64,000 nucleotides of DNA from Parazoarcus communis. Lineage in GTDB: Bacteria > Pseudomonadota > Gammaproteobacteria > Burkholderiales > Rhodocyclaceae. Position numbers and translations under genes: made by a program. Position 1 is the stretch's first letter, and each line of letters starts with the position of its first letter. Below the pieces are notes generated by a model. It ran no database searches. It was not told the origin of the DNA and saw only the letters and a program-made list of their open reading frames with translations. The stretch spans positions 2,666,001 to 2,730,000 of the forward strand of contig NZ_CP022187.1 of the NCBI RefSeq assembly GCF_003111645.1, given 5' to 3'. Positions 9,101 through 22,610 of the stretch are shown here, piece by piece.

Positions 9101-10234
9101 ATGCGTACGCATGGCTGCCCCCGGTGCGTTTCCGCAACTTCCGGCGCCAAGGCTGGAGCAGCTCAGGTATGCTCGGTGACCCGGTCCTTCCAATGGCTGA
9201 ACGTGACGTACGCCGAGCTTCCCGAACTGAGCGCACTGGAACACGTCATCAAGACCGGCGCGGGCCAGCTCGAGACCCGGGTCGTGCATCAGGTCGACAG
9301 CGGCTCGGGCGCACCGCTCCCGGTGTATGCCATCGCGCTTGGCAATCCCGCGCCCGACGTGCCCGCCATCGGCATATTCGGCGGCGTTCATGGGCTGGAG
9401 CGCATTGGCACCACCGTCGCAATCGCCTATCTGCAGTATCTGGTGACGCGCCTGCAGTGGGACGTGACCCTGCATCAGCAACTCGAAACCGTGCGCTTCG
9501 TGTTCATGCCGCTGATCAACCCTGGCGGCATGCGCCTGGGTACGCGCGCAAACCCCAATGGCGTGGACCTGATGCGCAACGCCCCGCTCGATTCGAGCGA
9601 GCGCGTGCCGATGCTGGTGGGCGGGCAGCGGATCAGCGCGCGCCTGCCGTGGTATCGCGGCGCGAGCAACGCCGGCATGGAAGCCGAGAGCCGGGCCCTA
9701 TGCGACCTGGTTGCAACCGACCTGCTCACACGCAAATTCTCCCTCGCGGTGGACTGCCACTCCGGCTTCGGCATCAGCGACCGCATCTGGTTTCCGTATG
9801 CGCACACGCGCACGCCGTTCAGCCATCTGGCAGAGATTCATGCGCTCAAGGATGTCTTCTACCGCACGCATCTTCACCATCCCTACATCTTCGAGCCCCA
9901 GAGCAGCCAGTATCTGACGCATGGTGACCTGTGGGATTTCCTGCATCTGCGCGCACTCGAAACGCCCGAGCGCATCTTCCTGCCGCTGACACTGGAAATG
10001 GGCTCGTGGCGATGGATCAAGAAGAACCCGCGCCAGCTGCTCAGCCGGCACGGCATGTTCAACCCCTTGATCGCGCACCGGCAGCAGCGTGTCCTGCGGC
10101 GCCATCTGTCGCTGCTCGATTTCCTGTCGCGGGCGAGCTGCAGCCACCTCAGATGGCTGCCGCAGGGCGAGGCACGCGCCGACCACCATGCGCGGGCGAT
10201 GGCGCACTGGTATCCCTCGGCCCCCGGGGCCTGA
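9101..10234 (+). CDS. M14 family zinc carboxypeptidase-like protein
   Basis: Zinc hydrolase of the M14 / succinylglutamate desuccinylase-aspartoacylase superfamily. The first zinc pair is in GGVHGLERIG (HxxE), followed by MPLINPGGMRLGTRANPNGVD and LMRN typical of M14, DCHSGFGISDRIWFPY (third ligand His), and LTLEMGSWRW carrying the catalytic Glu. Substrate unknown, perhaps a peptide amide. The start is unclear: ATG 9101, GTG 9176 (AGG at about -10) and GTG 9203 are all in frame, and residues before about 9203 do not look conserved. An alpha/beta hydrolase gene follows after 38 nt, probably in the same transcript. Confidence 0.75.
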   Translation: MRTHGCPRCVSATSGAKAGAAQVCSVTRSFQWLNVTYAELPELSALEHVIKTGAGQLETRVVHQVDSGSGAPLPVYAIALGNPAPDVPAIGIFGGVHGLERIGTTVAIAYLQYLVTRLQWDVTLHQQLETVRFVFMPLINPGGMRLGTRANPNGVDLMRNAPLDSSERVPMLVGGQRISARLPWYRGASNAGMEAESRALCDLVATDLLTRKFSLAVDCHSGFGISDRIWFPYAHTRTPFSHLAEIHALKDVFYRTHLHHPYIFEPQSSQYLTHGDLWDFLHLRALETPERIFLPLTLEMGSWRWIKKNPRQLLSRHGMFNPLIAHRQQRVLRRHLSLLDFLSRASCSHLRWLPQGEARADHHARAMAHWYPSAPGA

Positions 10235-10272
10235 GTCCGAACCCACCACCCGGCCCCCTGAACACCGAAGCC

Positions 10273-11067
10273 ATGACGACCTGGATTTTTCTGCGCGGAC
10301 TGACACGGGAAAGCCGTCACTGGGGCAGCTTCACCGACACCTTTGCGCACGCGGTACCGGACGCCCGGGTGATCACGCTCGATCTCCCCGGCAACGGCGA
10401 TCTGAATCAGCTCGCCAGCCCGGTGCGGGTCGAGGAGATGGCGGAACACTGTCATGCGGCGCTGCAGGCACTGGCCGTCACAAAGCCGTGCAAGGTGCTG
10501 GCGATGTCGCTCGGCGCAATGGTGACCGTCGCATGGGCCGACGCCCATCCGCAAGACATCGACAGCTGCGTGCTCATCAATACCAGCATGCGCCCGTTCA
10601 GCCCCTTTCATCATCGCCTGCGCCCGCGCAACTATCTGCCCCTGCTGCGGCTGGCGGTCGCGGGCGGCAAGGCGCGCGAGCATGAACGTGCCATTCTCGG
10701 GCTCACCAGCCAGCTCCGCGCCGACAGCGACACGGTGACGGCGGCGTGGACCCGCATTCACGAAGCGCATCCGGTTACCGGCGCCAACGCCCTGCGCCAG
10801 CTGTTCGCTGCCGCCCGCTTTCGCGCGCCAGCGCGGAAGCCTGCCGCTGCCATGCTGCTGCTCGCCAGCACCCGCGACGCCCTGGTCAACGCTGCGTGCT
10901 CTCGCGCACTCGCAGCCGCCTGGCATTGTGAACTGAGGCTCCACCCCAGCGCCGGACATGATCTGCCGCTGGACGACGGCGAGTGGGTGGCGGAGCAGGT
11001 GCGGCAATGGCTCGAACGCAATCCGCACCACCACACGCGCACTCCGGCAGGTGACGCCCGGCGCTGA
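10273..11067 (+). CDS. Alpha/beta hydrolase
   Basis: 264-residue serine hydrolase. Nucleophile elbow VLAMSLGAMVT, acid in LLASTRDALV, and histidine in SAGHDLPLDD complete the triad; the oxyanion strand MTTWIFLRGLTRESRHWGSF starts the protein. The ATG at 10273 begins directly at that strand. It follows the M14-like gene closely. Substrate not predictable; thioesterase, lipase and lactonase relatives share this pattern. Confidence 0.85.
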   Translation: MTTWIFLRGLTRESRHWGSFTDTFAHAVPDARVITLDLPGNGDLNQLASPVRVEEMAEHCHAALQALAVTKPCKVLAMSLGAMVTVAWADAHPQDIDSCVLINTSMRPFSPFHHRLRPRNYLPLLRLAVAGGKAREHERAILGLTSQLRADSDTVTAAWTRIHEAHPVTGANALRQLFAAARFRAPARKPAAAMLLLASTRDALVNAACSRALAAAWHCELRLHPSAGHDLPLDDGEWVAEQVRQWLERNPHHHTRTPAGDARR

Positions 11068-11678: not shown

Positions 11679-11801
11679 ACACGGCCTTGACCAGGCAATG
11701 GCTGCGACAAGATACTGAAACCCGAGCCGGCACCGGGCTGCCTGACGCAGACGGGGCCACTGTCACCCGGCCATCGCCACACCGAACCTGGGGGAGTGCG
11801 C

Positions 11802-14405
11802 ATGAGCGATGCCAGCAAGACGGATTCCGGTCCCGATGTCGCGCGCAAGCGCAGCCTGAACACCGCCAACATGGCGATGGGGCTGCGCCATCCGCAAGGG
11901 CCGGTCGCTACGCTGCTGGTCGCAGCCGGGCTGACATGGTCAGCGTTTCAGCTCTGGGTCGCCTCTCCGCTGCCGGAACTGCTCGGCGTACTGGTGTTCA
12001 ACGAGACCCGTATCCGCTCGCTGCACCTTGCCTTTGCGGTGCTGCTCGCCTTTCTCGCCTACCCGGCACGGCGCAGTGCGGATGCCGGCACGGTGCCGGT
12101 GCACGACGTCGTCCTTGCCGTGCTCGCAGCGCTGGGCGCGGGCTACCTCGCGCTGTTCTATGCCTCGGTCAGCGCGCACACGGGCGATCCCACGGATTTC
12201 GAAGTGGCGGCCGCTGCCGTCGGCCTGGGCCTGTTGCTCGAGGCCGCGCGGCGGGTGCTCGGCCTGCCGATGGTGATGATGGCCCTGGCCCTGCTCGGCT
12301 ACATCTTCCTCGGCCAGTGGATGCCCGACCTGATTGCGCACAAGGGCGCATCCTTCGGCAGAACCATGAGCCACATGTGGCTGACCACCGAAGGGGTGTT
12401 CGGCGTCGCGCTCGGGGTGTCGGCCGGGCTCATCTTTCTGTTCGTGCTCTTCGGCGCCCTGCTCGAAACCGCAGGGGCAGGCAGCTACTTCATCCGCAGC
12501 GCGGTGGCGCTGCTCGGACACATGCGCGGCGGCCCGGCCAAGGCAGCGGTCGTCGCTTCGGCAGCGACCGGCCTGATTTCAGGCTCGTCGATCACCAACG
12601 TGGTCACGACCGGCCCGCTCACCATCCCGCTGATCAAGCGCGTCGGCTATCCAGCGGAAAAGGCCGCCGCGATCGAGGTGGCAGCCTCGGTCAATGGTCA
12701 GGTCATGCCACCGGTCATGGGCGCAGCGGCCTTCCTGATGGTCGAATATGTCGGCGTGCCCTATGTGCAGGTGCTCAAGCATGCACTGATCTCGGCCATG
12801 GTGTCCTACCTCGGCCTGCTCTACATCGTGCATCTCGAAGCGGTGAAGGCGGATCTGCGCGGCCTGCCGCGCCGCCACTCGCCGCACTGGCAACGCTCGC
12901 TGAAGAACTTCGCGCTCGGCTTCCTCGGCATCGCGCTGGTGCTGGCCGTCGTATCCGTCATCGGCACCGTCGTCCACGCCGTGCTGCCGAATCTGTCGTT
13001 CATGGTCATGGCTGGCCTGCTGCTGGTGGCCTACGTGGTGCTGCTGCGCATGAGCCTGCCACACGCAGGCGAAACGCTGCCAGCCGACGCGCCGATCACC
13101 AGTCTGCCCGAGTTCGCCCCGACCCTGCGTTCAGGCATGCACTTCCTGCTGCCCGTCGGCGCACTGGTCTGGAATCTGGTCATCGAGCAGCTTTCACCCA
13201 CCCGCGCCGCCTTCTGGGCGACGCTTTTCCTGGCGTTCATCGTGCTGACGCAACGTCCGCTGATGGCCTGGTTCCGCGGTGACCGCAAGGTCACCGATGC
13301 CGCCTGGGAAGGCATGCAGGATCTCGTCGATGGTCTGGCCGCCGGTGCCCGCAACATGATTACGGTGGCGATCGCAACGGCGACGGCCGGCATCATCGTC
13401 GGCACCGTGACCCTCACCGGCATCGGACTGGTCATGACCGAACTCGTCACTGCGCTGTCGGGGGGCAACATCATCGTCATGCTCGCCCTCGTGGCAATGA
13501 TCTGTCTGGTGCTCGGCATGGGGCTGCCGACGACGGCGAACTACATCGTGGTGTCCTCGCTGATGGCACCGGTCATCGTCAACATCGGCGCCCAGAACGG
13601 GCTCTTCGTTCCCCTCATCGCCGCCCACCTGTTCGTCTTCTACTTCGGGCTGATGGCCGACATCACGCCACCGGTGGGGCTGGCCTCCTATGCCGCTGCC
13701 AGCATTGCGCTGGCAAACCCCATGCGTACCGGCATCATCGCCTTCCGCTACTCGATGCGCATGGCGCTGCTGCCCTTCATGTTCGTGCTCAACCCCAAGC
13801 TGCTGCTGATCGGGGTCGACGGGATCGGCCACACCCTGATCACCCTCGCCAGCGCAACCCTGGCCGGCTTTGCCTTCATCTCGGTCAATCAGGGCTGGCT
13901 GCTGATCCGCAGCACGACCACCGAGCGCCTGCTGATGCTGGCTTCAGTCTTCATGCTTTTTCACCCCGGGCTGTTCATGGACCCGCTGAACACGCCCTAT
14001 CATCAGCTCAACGGAACGGCGGCCGAAGCGGCCATCCTCGACGCGCCGGACCGCACCCAGATGCGCGTGCTGCTGAGCGGCACGACGCTCGAAGGCGAAC
14101 AGGTCGAACGCGGCATTCTGCTGCCGCTGGGCGCCCCTGCCGCCACGGCCATCAGCCGCCTCGCCAACAGTGGCATCGACGCCACACTCGTCGATGAGGG
14201 CTTCACCGTCCGTGGCGTCGACTTCGGCAGTCAGGCGGACAAGCTTGGCATCGAAGCCGGCTTTCGCATCATTGCGGTGGAGGTGCCGGGAGACCGCTTC
14301 GCACGGGAGTGGATGTTCGTGCCAGCGCTGCTGCTGCTCGCATGGGTCGCGCGTCGCCAGCGCCAGCGCCGCGACACCGTCCGCAGCATGCCGCACACGA
14401 ATTGA
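11802..14405 (+). CDS. TRAP transporter fused permease (4TM/12TM) with C-terminal DUF3394-type region
   Basis: Tripartite ATP-independent periplasmic transporter permease in which the small and large membrane subunits are fused, 867 residues and nearly all hydrophobic. Characteristic large-subunit motifs: SGLISGSSITNVVTTGPLTI-like and the paired LGMGLPTTANYIVVSSL and LMADITPPVGLASYAAASIA. The last ~130 residues form a soluble PDZ-like segment (GSQADKLGIEAGFRI) plus a final TM, as in DUF3394-bearing TRAP permeases. ATG 11802 has GGGGGAG 5-6 nt upstream. Such permeases work with a TAXI-type substrate-binding protein, but none is encoded next to it here, so the substrate cannot be inferred from context. 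Confidence 0.92.
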   Translation: MSDASKTDSGPDVARKRSLNTANMAMGLRHPQGPVATLLVAAGLTWSAFQLWVASPLPELLGVLVFNETRIRSLHLAFAVLLAFLAYPARRSADAGTVPVHDVVLAVLAALGAGYLALFYASVSAHTGDPTDFEVAAAAVGLGLLLEAARRVLGLPMVMMALALLGYIFLGQWMPDLIAHKGASFGRTMSHMWLTTEGVFGVALGVSAGLIFLFVLFGALLETAGAGSYFIRSAVALLGHMRGGPAKAAVVASAATGLISGSSITNVVTTGPLTIPLIKRVGYPAEKAAAIEVAASVNGQVMPPVMGAAAFLMVEYVGVPYVQVLKHALISAMVSYLGLLYIVHLEAVKADLRGLPRRHSPHWQRSLKNFALGFLGIALVLAVVSVIGTVVHAVLPNLSFMVMAGLLLVAYVVLLRMSLPHAGETLPADAPITSLPEFAPTLRSGMHFLLPVGALVWNLVIEQLSPTRAAFWATLFLAFIVLTQRPLMAWFRGDRKVTDAAWEGMQDLVDGLAAGARNMITVAIATATAGIIVGTVTLTGIGLVMTELVTALSGGNIIVMLALVAMICLVLGMGLPTTANYIVVSSLMAPVIVNIGAQNGLFVPLIAAHLFVFYFGLMADITPPVGLASYAAASIALANPMRTGIIAFRYSMRMALLPFMFVLNPKLLLIGVDGIGHTLITLASATLAGFAFISVNQGWLLIRSTTTERLLMLASVFMLFHPGLFMDPLNTPYHQLNGTAAEAAILDAPDRTQMRVLLSGTTLEGEQVERGILLPLGAPAATAISRLANSGIDATLVDEGFTVRGVDFGSQADKLGIEAGFRIIAVEVPGDRFAREWMFVPALLLLAWVARRQRQRRDTVRSMPHTN

Positions 14406-14593
14406 CCGCCAGGCGCGGGTCTGCAACCGCCGCAGAGCACCGGCCAGCAGACGAAGTGCGCGGCTTCGCGCGGCATTCGCCACATTCTCAGAAATATGCT
14501 TTCAGACATAGCTCGCCGGCGTGGTCCAGCGCACAATCAGCCCGTTCAGCATGCTTCGGACTTGACCCTGCCATGTGTCATGCATGTGCATAA

Positions 14594-15301
14594 AGGATTG
14601 CCCGCGAGGAGAAGCGCAGAACCGAGCTGGAGGTCGTGCGCGACGTGCGCAAGTATTACAACGGCGTTCACTTCACCCCGCACATGAAAGCGCTCGCCAG
14701 CGACACGCTCGCACGATTTGAGGCACTTGAGGATCTCACCGCCCGGCTGTACCCGAATGCCTCCCTGCGCGTGAAGCGCACCGACTATCTGCGCACCAAG
14801 ACGACCACCGCGGTGACCCGCTCCATGCTGCACGAGGCCCGCTACGCCAGCCGCCTGAGCAAGGAGGCCCCGGCAAATGCGATGGGACTCCCGCTGAACG
14901 CCCCGCTCACCCTCGCTGCGGAGGCACCGCTACCGCCCTTCGATGCCCGGCTGGAGGACCTGATCGCCGATGCCATGCAGTTCAACCCGGACAAACAGCG
15001 CCTTGAACTGGCCGTGCAGGCCGCATCCTTCAAGATCGACGAAGCCAGAAGCGGCCACCTGCCCACAATCGGGCTGGAGGCCAGCACCTACACGGTGTGG
15101 AACGACTGCCAGGGCGGCCTTTTCAACGACGACAACCGCGACGGCTGGACGATCGGCATCGGCATCGAGGTGGAACTGCGCATCACCGCCGCTGGCATGG
15201 ACAAGGAAACGCTCAAGGACATCGTTGACCGTGCCCACATCGTCTGCCCCTACTCCAACGCCACCCGGGGCAACATCAAGGTCACCCTGACACTGGTCTG
15301 A
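14594..15301 (+). pseudogene. Chimeric remnant: TolC-family outer membrane factor fragment fused in frame to the C-terminus of Ohr
   Basis: Open frame after a TAA at 14591-14593. The first ~190 codons are the middle of a TolC/OEP protein (EEKRRTELEVVRDVRKYYNG, a helical hairpin region, then RLELAVQAASFKIDEARSGH and LFNDDNRDGWTIGIG). The reading then passes straight into the last ~45 residues of an organic hydroperoxide resistance protein: ELRITAAGMDKETLKDIVDR and VCPYSNATRGNIKVTLTLV, with the resolving-cysteine motif VCPYSNATRGN. The TolC part lacks signal peptide, N-terminus and C-terminus, and Ohr lacks its first two thirds including the catalytic cysteine. A deletion joining the two genes is the simplest explanation. 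No good ribosome-binding site is seen; GTG 14636 could start a 221-residue product. Confidence 0.75.
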
Positions 15302-15324
15302 GCCGCGCCCGGCAGCGGGACACG

Positions 15325-15350
15325 AGGCCCGGGAACCCCCTCCCGGGCCT
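15325..15350 (+). terminator. Rho-independent-like terminator after the Ohr remnant
   Basis: Perfect 10-bp stem AGGCCCGGGA (15325-15334) / TCCCGGGCCT (15341-15350), 6-nt loop, followed by TTCGTCATTCG. Probably the original ohr terminator. Confidence 0.7.
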
Positions 15351-15412
15351 TTCGTCATTCGTCGCCGGGCACCATCCGCCCATTTCGTTTGCCGAATGTG
15401 GCCGCACCCGAC

Positions 15413-17053
15413 TCAGATTGGCGCGGGCGGCACGGATGGCGCGACATGCTGCGTCGCCATCGGCTCTCCCACGTAGCGCTGAACGCGAGGCTCGTCCGGC
15501 CCCAAGTGAAAGGACAGACGCTGCTCGCGGAGACCCGCATCGGCAGCAGTAAATCGCTCAAGCCTGCGCTGATGCTCGATCCAGTTCTCGTCGAGGAAGT
15601 ATTCGATATAGCGCCCGGGCAAGGTCGTATCCCTGAACAGGCCCCATGACAGCGCGCCCTGGCGCAAGCGTGCGCGACGCGTCTTCTGCATCACCGCATT
15701 GAAGGCGGCAGCGGCGGACGGGTCGATCAGGTATTCGATCGTGACCATGACCGGCCCCTCGTTGGGCGCGATCTCGATGATCGGCTCCGGCGCCCGTCCT
15801 GCAGGCGGTACCGGCGTATGGTCGGCATCCGGCCCGCCACCTACGCTCAAGTGCCGCGTCAGCGCCAGGAGCAGCGGCCCGAGCGCGGCTGCGATCGCGA
15901 TACTCACGCTCACGGTGGTCAGGCTCGCCACATAACCCCACAGCGCAGCACCCACCGCACTGCCGCCCATCAGCGCCATCTGGTAGATCGACATGCCGCG
16001 CGCGCGCACCCAGTTGGGCAAGGCGAGCTGGGCGGCCAGGGTGAGCGAGTTCGCCGTCGCAATCCAGGCCATGCCGGCCAGGGCACTTGCCGGCATCGCA
16101 AGCCAGATATTGGGCGCGAGCACCACCAGCAGCGCCGCGACCGCATGTACGCCGGTGCCCCATGCCACGAATTCGTCCCGACTGATGCCGCGACGCAGGC
16201 GGGGCAGGAACAGCGCGGTGAGAATCGCGCCCGCCCCCATCGCAGCCAGCAATGCGGTGAAGGTCGTCGCGCCGCCCTCGAGCTTGCGCGCAATCAGTGG
16301 CAGCAGTGCAAGCAGTGCGCTCGATTGCAGGAAGAAGCCGAAGATTCTCAGCAGTACCACGCGCATTCGCGGCGACTGTACGACATGCTGCAGCCCCACC
16401 CGCATCGCGCCAAAGAAGCGCTCGCCGGGCAAGGCGCTCACTTTCGGCTCCGAACGCCAGCGCAGGATGATCACGAAGGCGATGATCGACAGCAAGGCAT
16501 TGAGCAGGAACACGTACTGACTGCCGACGCTGGCGAGCAGCATGCCAGCTACCACCGGCCCGACGATGCGCGACATGTTCATGGCAATGCCGTTCAGCGC
16601 CAGCGCGGCCGACAGGTCATGCCGCGGCACGACCTCGGGCACGATCGCCGCGAACACCGGCCAGCGCATGGCCATCCCGATACCGTTGGCGAAGGTGAGC
16701 GCCAGCAGCAGGGGCGCGCTGAGGCCGTCGGCAAATGCCAGCGCGCTGAGCACCAGCGCCGTCGCCGCGACCCATAGCTGGGTGACCGCAAAGTAACGCC
16801 GCCGGTCGACGATGTCGGCCAAGGCGCCGCTCGGCAGCCCAAGCACGAACACCGGCAGGGTCGAGGCCGCCTGCACCATCGCCACCATGAACACGCTGTC
16901 GGTCAGCGTCGTCATCACCCATGCCGACGCGACGTCATTCATCCACATGGTGACGTTGGCCGCCAGCCAGGCCATCCACAGCATCCGGAACACCGGGTCG
17001 CGCAGCGGAGCCATCGTGGAAGGCGCTTGTTTCGGATCGGCCGGCGTGGTCAT
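15413..17053 (-). CDS. MFS exporter (EntS-like, MFS_3/DUF894) with C-terminal ABM-like domain
   Basis: Major facilitator of about 546 residues. The first ~400 residues hold about 12 TM helices beginning LRDPVFRMLWMAWLAANVTM and include the loop motif GALADIVDRRRYF. This matches the enterobactin-exporter-like MFS_3 group. After the last helix a soluble tail of roughly 130 residues (MVTIEYLIDPSAAAAFNAVM, RQGALSWGLFRDTTLPGRYI) resembles antibiotic-biosynthesis-monooxygenase / dabb-fold domains, a fusion known in this group. Start ATG 17053 follows GAGG at about -12; an in-frame ATG at 17128 would add 25 unlikely residues. Substrate unknown; small-molecule efflux is inferred. Confidence 0.85.
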   Translation of the reverse strand: MTTPADPKQAPSTMAPLRDPVFRMLWMAWLAANVTMWMNDVASAWVMTTLTDSVFMVAMVQAASTLPVFVLGLPSGALADIVDRRRYFAVTQLWVAATALVLSALAFADGLSAPLLLALTFANGIGMAMRWPVFAAIVPEVVPRHDLSAALALNGIAMNMSRIVGPVVAGMLLASVGSQYVFLLNALLSIIAFVIILRWRSEPKVSALPGERFFGAMRVGLQHVVQSPRMRVVLLRIFGFFLQSSALLALLPLIARKLEGGATTFTALLAAMGAGAILTALFLPRLRRGISRDEFVAWGTGVHAVAALLVVLAPNIWLAMPASALAGMAWIATANSLTLAAQLALPNWVRARGMSIYQMALMGGSAVGAALWGYVASLTTVSVSIAIAAALGPLLLALTRHLSVGGGPDADHTPVPPAGRAPEPIIEIAPNEGPVMVTIEYLIDPSAAAAFNAVMQKTRRARLRQGALSWGLFRDTTLPGRYIEYFLDENWIEHQRRLERFTAADAGLREQRLSFHLGPDEPRVQRYVGEPMATQHVAPSVPPAPI

Positions 17054-17165
17054 TGGTTCGGGCCTCGTTAGGGTGAGCGCGTCAGCGGCGCCCACCGAAG
17101 TATCACTGGCTGCGGCGCGCGCAGTCAATTGAGACGCCGCGTCTCAAAACCTCATCTGCATCCTA

Positions 17166-21324: not shown

Positions 21325-22005
21325 ATGAAGGTCTGCGTTGTAGGCGCATCCGGAAAACTCGGCCAGTACATGGTCCAGCATGCACTCGACCGCGGCCATG
21401 AGGTCGTCGGCGTCTGCCGTGAGCGCAGCGTCGGCAAGCTCGACCGCTTCAAGGGTCGTATCACCATCATCCCGGGTGCCACAAACGACCGCGAAGTCAT
21501 CAGGAAAGCGGTCGCGGGCTGTGATGGCGTGCTCACCGTACTGGTGCCCTGGGGCGTCCAGCAGTATTCATCGGGCACCGCCCAGGCGGTGATGGACTGT
21601 TCCCCCCCGGATGCACGGCTCGTGTTCTCCTGCGGCTGGCATATCAGCCGCGACGGCAAGGACCGCTACTCGTGGAAACTGAAAGCGCTGGTGGCCATTG
21701 CCGGCCCCATCGCCCGTCTCTTCCGGCTGGCGGAGCTGGACGACCAGGTTGAAGCGTGCCGACGGATCTTCGCCAGCACGACGAAGTGGACCGTCGTCCG
21801 CGCAAGCGACCTTGAGGAAGGGGACAGCCAGGGCCTGCCGGTCTGGAGCCGGCACGTTGGCGACGCCATCCTCGAAAGCAATCTCACTCGCCGCGTGGAC
21901 TTCGCCCTGTTCATGGTGGCGGCGCTCAAGAACGACGAACTCATTCATGAAGCACCCGCAATCGTGGGCTGCCAGACGCCGTCGGCACGCGCTGGCGAGG
22001 CCTGA
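21325..22005 (+). CDS. NAD(P)-binding atypical SDR / NmrA-like protein
   Basis: 226 residues with the Rossmann motif MKVCVVGASGKLGQYMVQHA at the N-terminus, a second strand EVVGVCRERS, and GCDGVLTVLVPWG following the cofactor site. No SDR Tyr-x-x-x-Lys catalytic pair is evident, consistent with an atypical NmrA/NAD-dependent epimerase-like protein. GGGAGGGA precedes the ATG. About 100 nt after the cyclase-family gene and possibly in its operon. Confidence 0.8.
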   Translation: MKVCVVGASGKLGQYMVQHALDRGHEVVGVCRERSVGKLDRFKGRITIIPGATNDREVIRKAVAGCDGVLTVLVPWGVQQYSSGTAQAVMDCSPPDARLVFSCGWHISRDGKDRYSWKLKALVAIAGPIARLFRLAELDDQVEACRRIFASTTKWTVVRASDLEEGDSQGLPVWSRHVGDAILESNLTRRVDFALFMVAALKNDELIHEAPAIVGCQTPSARAGEA

Positions 22006-22099
22006 TGCGGCCCATCGGATCAACCGTGTGCCCGTGCCCGACAGCCCGGCACACCAGGATGCCCGCAGCCGGACGCCATAGTTGAATCAGACCCGGTTG

Positions 22100-22610
22100 C
22101 GGTCTGCGCACCTGATTGATGCCCAGCAGCGTCGGTTTTCCTCCGCTGGAGTGCTGTCGCGGGACGAGGCCCAGCCATGCGGCCAGTTGACGGCCATCTT
22201 TGAAACTCTGCGCGTCGGCGATCGATGCTGCCAACGCTGTGGCGGTTAGCGGGCCGACGCCCGGAATCTTCTCCAGGCGCTGGCTCAGTTAGCAACCTCG
22301 GTGCCATTGCTTGATCTGCGCTTCAAGTTCGCCCACTTGCCGGTCCAGTGCCATCAGGTGTTCATAGAGGCGCCGAATCAGGCGCAGGAACATCTCCGGC
22401 AGCTCATCGTCTGCATTCTCGACGCGCCCCCACAACCGAGTCCTCAAGGTGCAGATTCCCTTTGGCAGCACCAGACCGAATTCGCCAGGCAGTCCTCGGA
22501 TTTGGTTCGCCTGCGGCGTGCGCGCCACGACGAAGCCCCGGCGAACCCGGTGCAGCGACAGCACCGCCTGCTGTTCAATACTCTTGATCAGCACTTCCAC
22601 GCTGGCACAT
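22100..22610 (-). pseudogene. IS110/IS1111-family transposase fragment
   Basis: Leftward reading gives VEVLIKSIEQQAVLSLHRVR, ARTPQANQIRGLPGEFGLVL, MALDRQVGELEAQIKQWHRG, then a stop codon and, in the same frame, LSQRLEKIPGVGPLTATALA and AAWLGLVPRQHSSGGKPTLL GI. This is the middle and IS116/IS110/IS902 C-terminal domain of an IS1111-type transposase. The N-terminal DEDD half and the extreme C-terminus are absent and there is an internal stop, so it is dead. Upstream and downstream sequence to 22005 and 22735 is degenerate. Confidence 0.85.

Follow-up and report, generated by a model that had tools for sequence, protein, structure and literature searches.

The open frame at positions 14594-15301 of the window (the whole 64,000-nucleotide stretch of Parazoarcus communis DNA analyzed here) is very probably a gene remnant without function in a locus undergoing decay, held open by chance after two deletions cut through an ancestral gene cluster. 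It had been described in advance as a clean gene fusion, in which two unrelated genes, tolC and ohr, were joined in frame by deletion. Comparison with a genome of the same genus (G001) bears out the outline of that reading: in G001 the genes are unfused, TolC is intact, and the ohr tail lies 3 kb further downstream. The adjective does not hold, because this is not one clean join but the product of two or more deletions: a further deletion had cut off the 5' part of tolC, ohr is truncated in G001 as well, and what is left resembles a pseudogene.

Anatomy of the chimeric frame

In the open reading frame listing and its translation, the chimeric frame (forward strand) opens at 14594 and runs for 235 codons, or 708 bases, with no internal stop before its TGA at 15299-15301. 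Position 14594 is directly preceded by a TAA codon (14591-14593), and the frame therefore extends nothing upstream. Its length alone is unremarkable at 64.5% GC, since 235 codons were reached in 23 of 500 shuffles. Fragments of two separate ancestral genes lie within it, and the one runs without a stop into the other, as originally noticed: residues 1 to ~190 derive from a TolC-type outer membrane factor, and the remaining ~46 from the C-terminal end of Ohr. Both halves are recognized by profile searches, in Pfam as OEP (E=6e-9) and OsmC (E=8e-6), and in NCBIfam as TolC (TIGR01844, E=9e-12) and as positions 88-133 of the 134 in the Ohr model (TIGR03561, E=8e-14). The peptide spanning the join is WTIGIGIEVELR.

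The tolC piece (14596-15166, forward strand) is the middle of the gene, and shares 92% identity with residues ~151-340 of the 465-residue TolC of G001, a likeness that places it with the outer membrane factors of the cluster described below (OEP, TIGR01844). TolC/OEP proteins have a signal peptide and two structural repeats that form a beta-barrel and an alpha-barrel; unlike an intact TolC, the chimera lacks the signal peptide region, the N-terminal part and the C-terminal repeat end, and its product contains no complete barrel repeat. The OEP match is partial (positions 1-74 of 187), and the TIGR01844 score is 44.7 bits against a cut-off of 225.

The ohr piece (15159-15301, forward strand) supplies the last 46-47 codons, the C-terminal third of Ohr, including the VCPYSNATRGN segment with its resolving Cys, and scores 52 bits against the TIGR03561 cut-off of 88.85. 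Unlike Ohr itself, the chimera is without the first two thirds of the fold, including the active-site Arg, Glu and peroxidatic Cys (Arg19, Glu51 and Cys61 in Xylella; PMC5962072), so that only the resolving Cys is retained. A full Ohr above the cut-off is present in G002 and G004, and was found neither in the genome of the window (G000) nor in G001. The sole other Ohr/OsmC-like match in the genome of the window (G000:C1:1422723-1423076, L034) scores 56.8 bits, which is below the cut-off, and the species may therefore have no true Ohr.

The unfused locus in a relative

Among the close relatives compared, G001 is the only one that retains the locus (its coordinates are given here as L031). The order of genes there is TRAP permease, HD-GYP response regulator, the 465-residue TolC, a PhnD-type phosphonate-binding protein, a HAMP/HisKA histidine kinase, an ohr 3' remnant, and an MFS transporter. 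The two genomes share the same flanks. On the left is a TRAP transporter fused permease (DctM + DUF3394), intact in the window at 11796-14405 on the forward strand, and on the right a convergent MFS_3 transporter, likewise intact (15413-17128, reverse strand; 97% amino-acid identity). The pieces held in common are 92-97% identical, and the intervening genes are kept in G001. Of the two intact genes to be looked for at this locus in relatives, as proposed at the outset, G001 has tolC only: its ohr sequence, 96% identical to the piece in the window, begins close to the sequence ALPGDLTIEG, ~12 nt after the kinase gene ends, and the first half of ohr is missing there too. A search for traces of ohr or ohrR in the DNA from the TRAP gene to the junction gave nothing beyond matches of chance length. 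In G224, a full ohr adjoins homologues of window positions 9218-11012, a context which hints that ohr may be native to this neighborhood. Elsewhere in the window, at 21941-22234 on the reverse strand, a short open reading frame resembles, as judged by eye, the C-terminal part of an IS110-type transposase.

The long arrangement of G001 is ancestral and that of the window derived, because genes for regulator, TolC, PhnD (1-3 copies) and kinase follow one another in this order in about a dozen further proteobacterial genomes, including bins labelled Tepidiphilus, Rhodoferax, Thiobacillus, Propionivibrio and Parasulfuritortus, methylotrophic gammaproteobacteria, and others. On this polarity the unfused state came first and the intervening DNA was removed, as expected of a fusion born by deletion. 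The opposite polarity, in which the short form came first and G001 acquired the cluster by insertion into a tolC-ohr gene, draws on the lack of conservation of the TRAP-MFS locus among the other genus members examined, so that polarity rests on gene integrity. That integrity makes an insertion close to negligible as an explanation: many genomes have a full-length TolC with the same neighbors, a full Ohr occurs in many others, and the window has just the middle of one gene and the tail of the other. The cluster itself (HD-GYP regulator, TolC, one to three PhnD-like proteins, HAMP kinase; L031:6359-12229, L036-L050) is conserved in betaproteobacteria and some gammaproteobacteria, and there is no ABC permease among the G001 cluster genes looked at.

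Full-length, conserved homologues with the same fused architecture, which the preliminary description had named as the observation that would count against it, were sought in 299 genomes of the family, and the only fused tolC-ohr architecture found was that of the window itself. In a search of plasmid proteins, 0 of 73 records covered 80% of the chimera query, and the best 10 of the 73 were separate matches to the Ohr tail only. The species is represented by a single genome, with no independent strain in the comparison, and this leaves some room for misassembled junctions in a real genome that has the cluster intact. Such an artefact is nevertheless exceedingly unlikely, since the assembly is a single complete contig (4.57 Mb, 100% complete), the pieces have diverged to normal between-species levels, and no orthologues of the kinase or the cluster TolC were found elsewhere in the assembly, where the best matches reach 32% and 27% identity, respectively.

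Deletion junctions and a shared repeat

Alignment of the window with L031 locates both deletion endpoints. At the left junction, J1 (14590-14596, forward strand), window position 14589 corresponds to L031:6175 and position 14596 to L031:8659, leaving ~6 unmatched nt, which include the TAA at 14591-14593, and a net ~2.48 kb missing from the window. This 5' deletion takes the HD-GYP regulator and TolC residues 1-150. At the right junction, J2 (15159-15166, forward strand), position 15158 corresponds to L031:9221 and position 15159 to L031:12276. The ~3.05 kb missing here comprise the remaining tolC sequence and the PhnD and kinase genes, and their loss joins tolC to ohr across an 8-bp microhomology, TCGGCATC, that is present on both sides of J2.

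The same repeat is implicated in a second event. The full-length ohr of G002 carries the motif twice, 27 bp apart (VGIG...FGIE), and compared with the full-length genes of G002 and G224 the G001 remnant is without exactly those 27 bp, in frame. This loss in G001, at L031:12242-12290, lies between two TCGGCATCG repeats, the repeat found at J2. Because G001 lost exactly the 27 bp between the repeat copies, the same short repeat has been used in two lineages, which accounts for the near-identical codon at which ohr is broken in both species.

The order of events that we propose is as follows. The common ancestor of the window species and G001 would have carried, between the TRAP permease and MFS genes, an operon-like cluster of HD-GYP regulator, TolC, PhnD-like protein and histidine kinase, followed by ohr sequence. 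Two deletions in the lineage of the window would then have removed ~5.5 kb. The 5' deletion would account for the loss of the regulator and the first third of tolC. The 3' deletion, for which illegitimate recombination between the 8-bp direct repeats TCGGCATC is the probable mechanism, would have removed the 3' part of tolC together with the PhnD and kinase genes, and made what was left of tolC continuous, in frame, with the final 46-47 codons of ohr. The odds of such a join being in frame by chance are one in three.

Expression signals and selection

The native tolC start is deleted in the window, and only internal GTG and ATG codons are left: in-frame GTG codons at 14636 and 14645, with GGAGG 2 and 11 nt upstream, and the earliest ATG at 14684. 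Scans of the region returned no promoter-like site, no terminator call and an empty Rfam result. The preliminary description had also held that the terminator after the chimera is preserved. A GC-rich hairpin with a short T stretch does follow the stop (15324-15352, forward strand; -23.6 kcal/mol for the 15324-15349 region), but its T tract is weak (TTTCGT), the terminator scan rejected it, and it is absent from G001. It lies within a stretch of ~90 bp that G001 has lost between two ~10-bp repeats (GCCGCGCCCG and GCCGCACCCG in the window; L031:12419-12428 compared with window 15302-15401). Both species show decay along the entire stretch.

We calculated dN/dS and lineage-polarized changes for the tolC piece as a test of relaxed selection, and the result is suggestive by the type of change and not significant by number. 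There are 12 amino-acid differences from G001. When polarized with 13 relatives, 8 amino-acid changes fall on the window side and 3 on the G001 side, a suggestive but not significant excess, while synonymous codons divide 11 to 10. Among the changes on the window side are Q->P and L->P, both at sites where all 13 relatives agree, and Y->C at a site with Y or F in relatives. The pairwise dN/dS is 0.13, near the values for the flanking genes (0.08-0.11), and the decay of the tolC piece is therefore either recent or statistically invisible. The missing stops are not evidence of selection, because a stop would arise from ~2% of substitutions, and with ~20 substitutions in this piece along the window lineage only ~0.4 stops are expected.

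These observations bear on whether the chimera is transcribed and translated, as raw material for a new function or already with one. In favor of this, no stop interrupts the frame and its phase is kept through the junction, the two GTG codons have GGAGG upstream, and similar fusions have been reported, one of them expressed in evolved E. coli (PMC12803068). However, the chimera has a stop directly upstream, no ATG near its 5' end, no promoter match and no signal peptide region, both its catalytic and its structural cores are gone, and it occurs in a single genome, so that a living fusion gene is very unlikely. Read-through transcription from the TRAP gene is possible; that the chimera is a young gene being explored by selection through such read-through and a GTG start is highly improbable. 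The preferred reading remains a remnant that has probably lost its function.

Comparison with known fusions

The closest described class is that of deletion-born fusions, e.g. yjcO-lysU in the Lenski LTEE and narX in M. tuberculosis (Kaul et al. 2026, PMC12803068). As in those cases, a deletion joins fragments of distant genes in one open frame and a relative is unfused; as in yjcO-lysU of E. coli, which is expressed but inert (PMC12803068), the catalytic parts are lost. Unlike them, the chimera, known here from one genome's sequence, has a 5' gene that was itself beheaded by a second deletion, and because of this it inherits no native start or promoter.

The chimera is thus an ordinary product of gene decay with an attractive anatomy, and its wider importance is small unless its expression is shown. 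For automatic annotation it is a caution, as a 221-residue "TolC family protein" would probably be called here. Its value is as a tidy example of gene decay, in which one close relative lets both deletion endpoints be read and a repeat within ohr, TCGGCATC, has been a breakpoint in two lineages.
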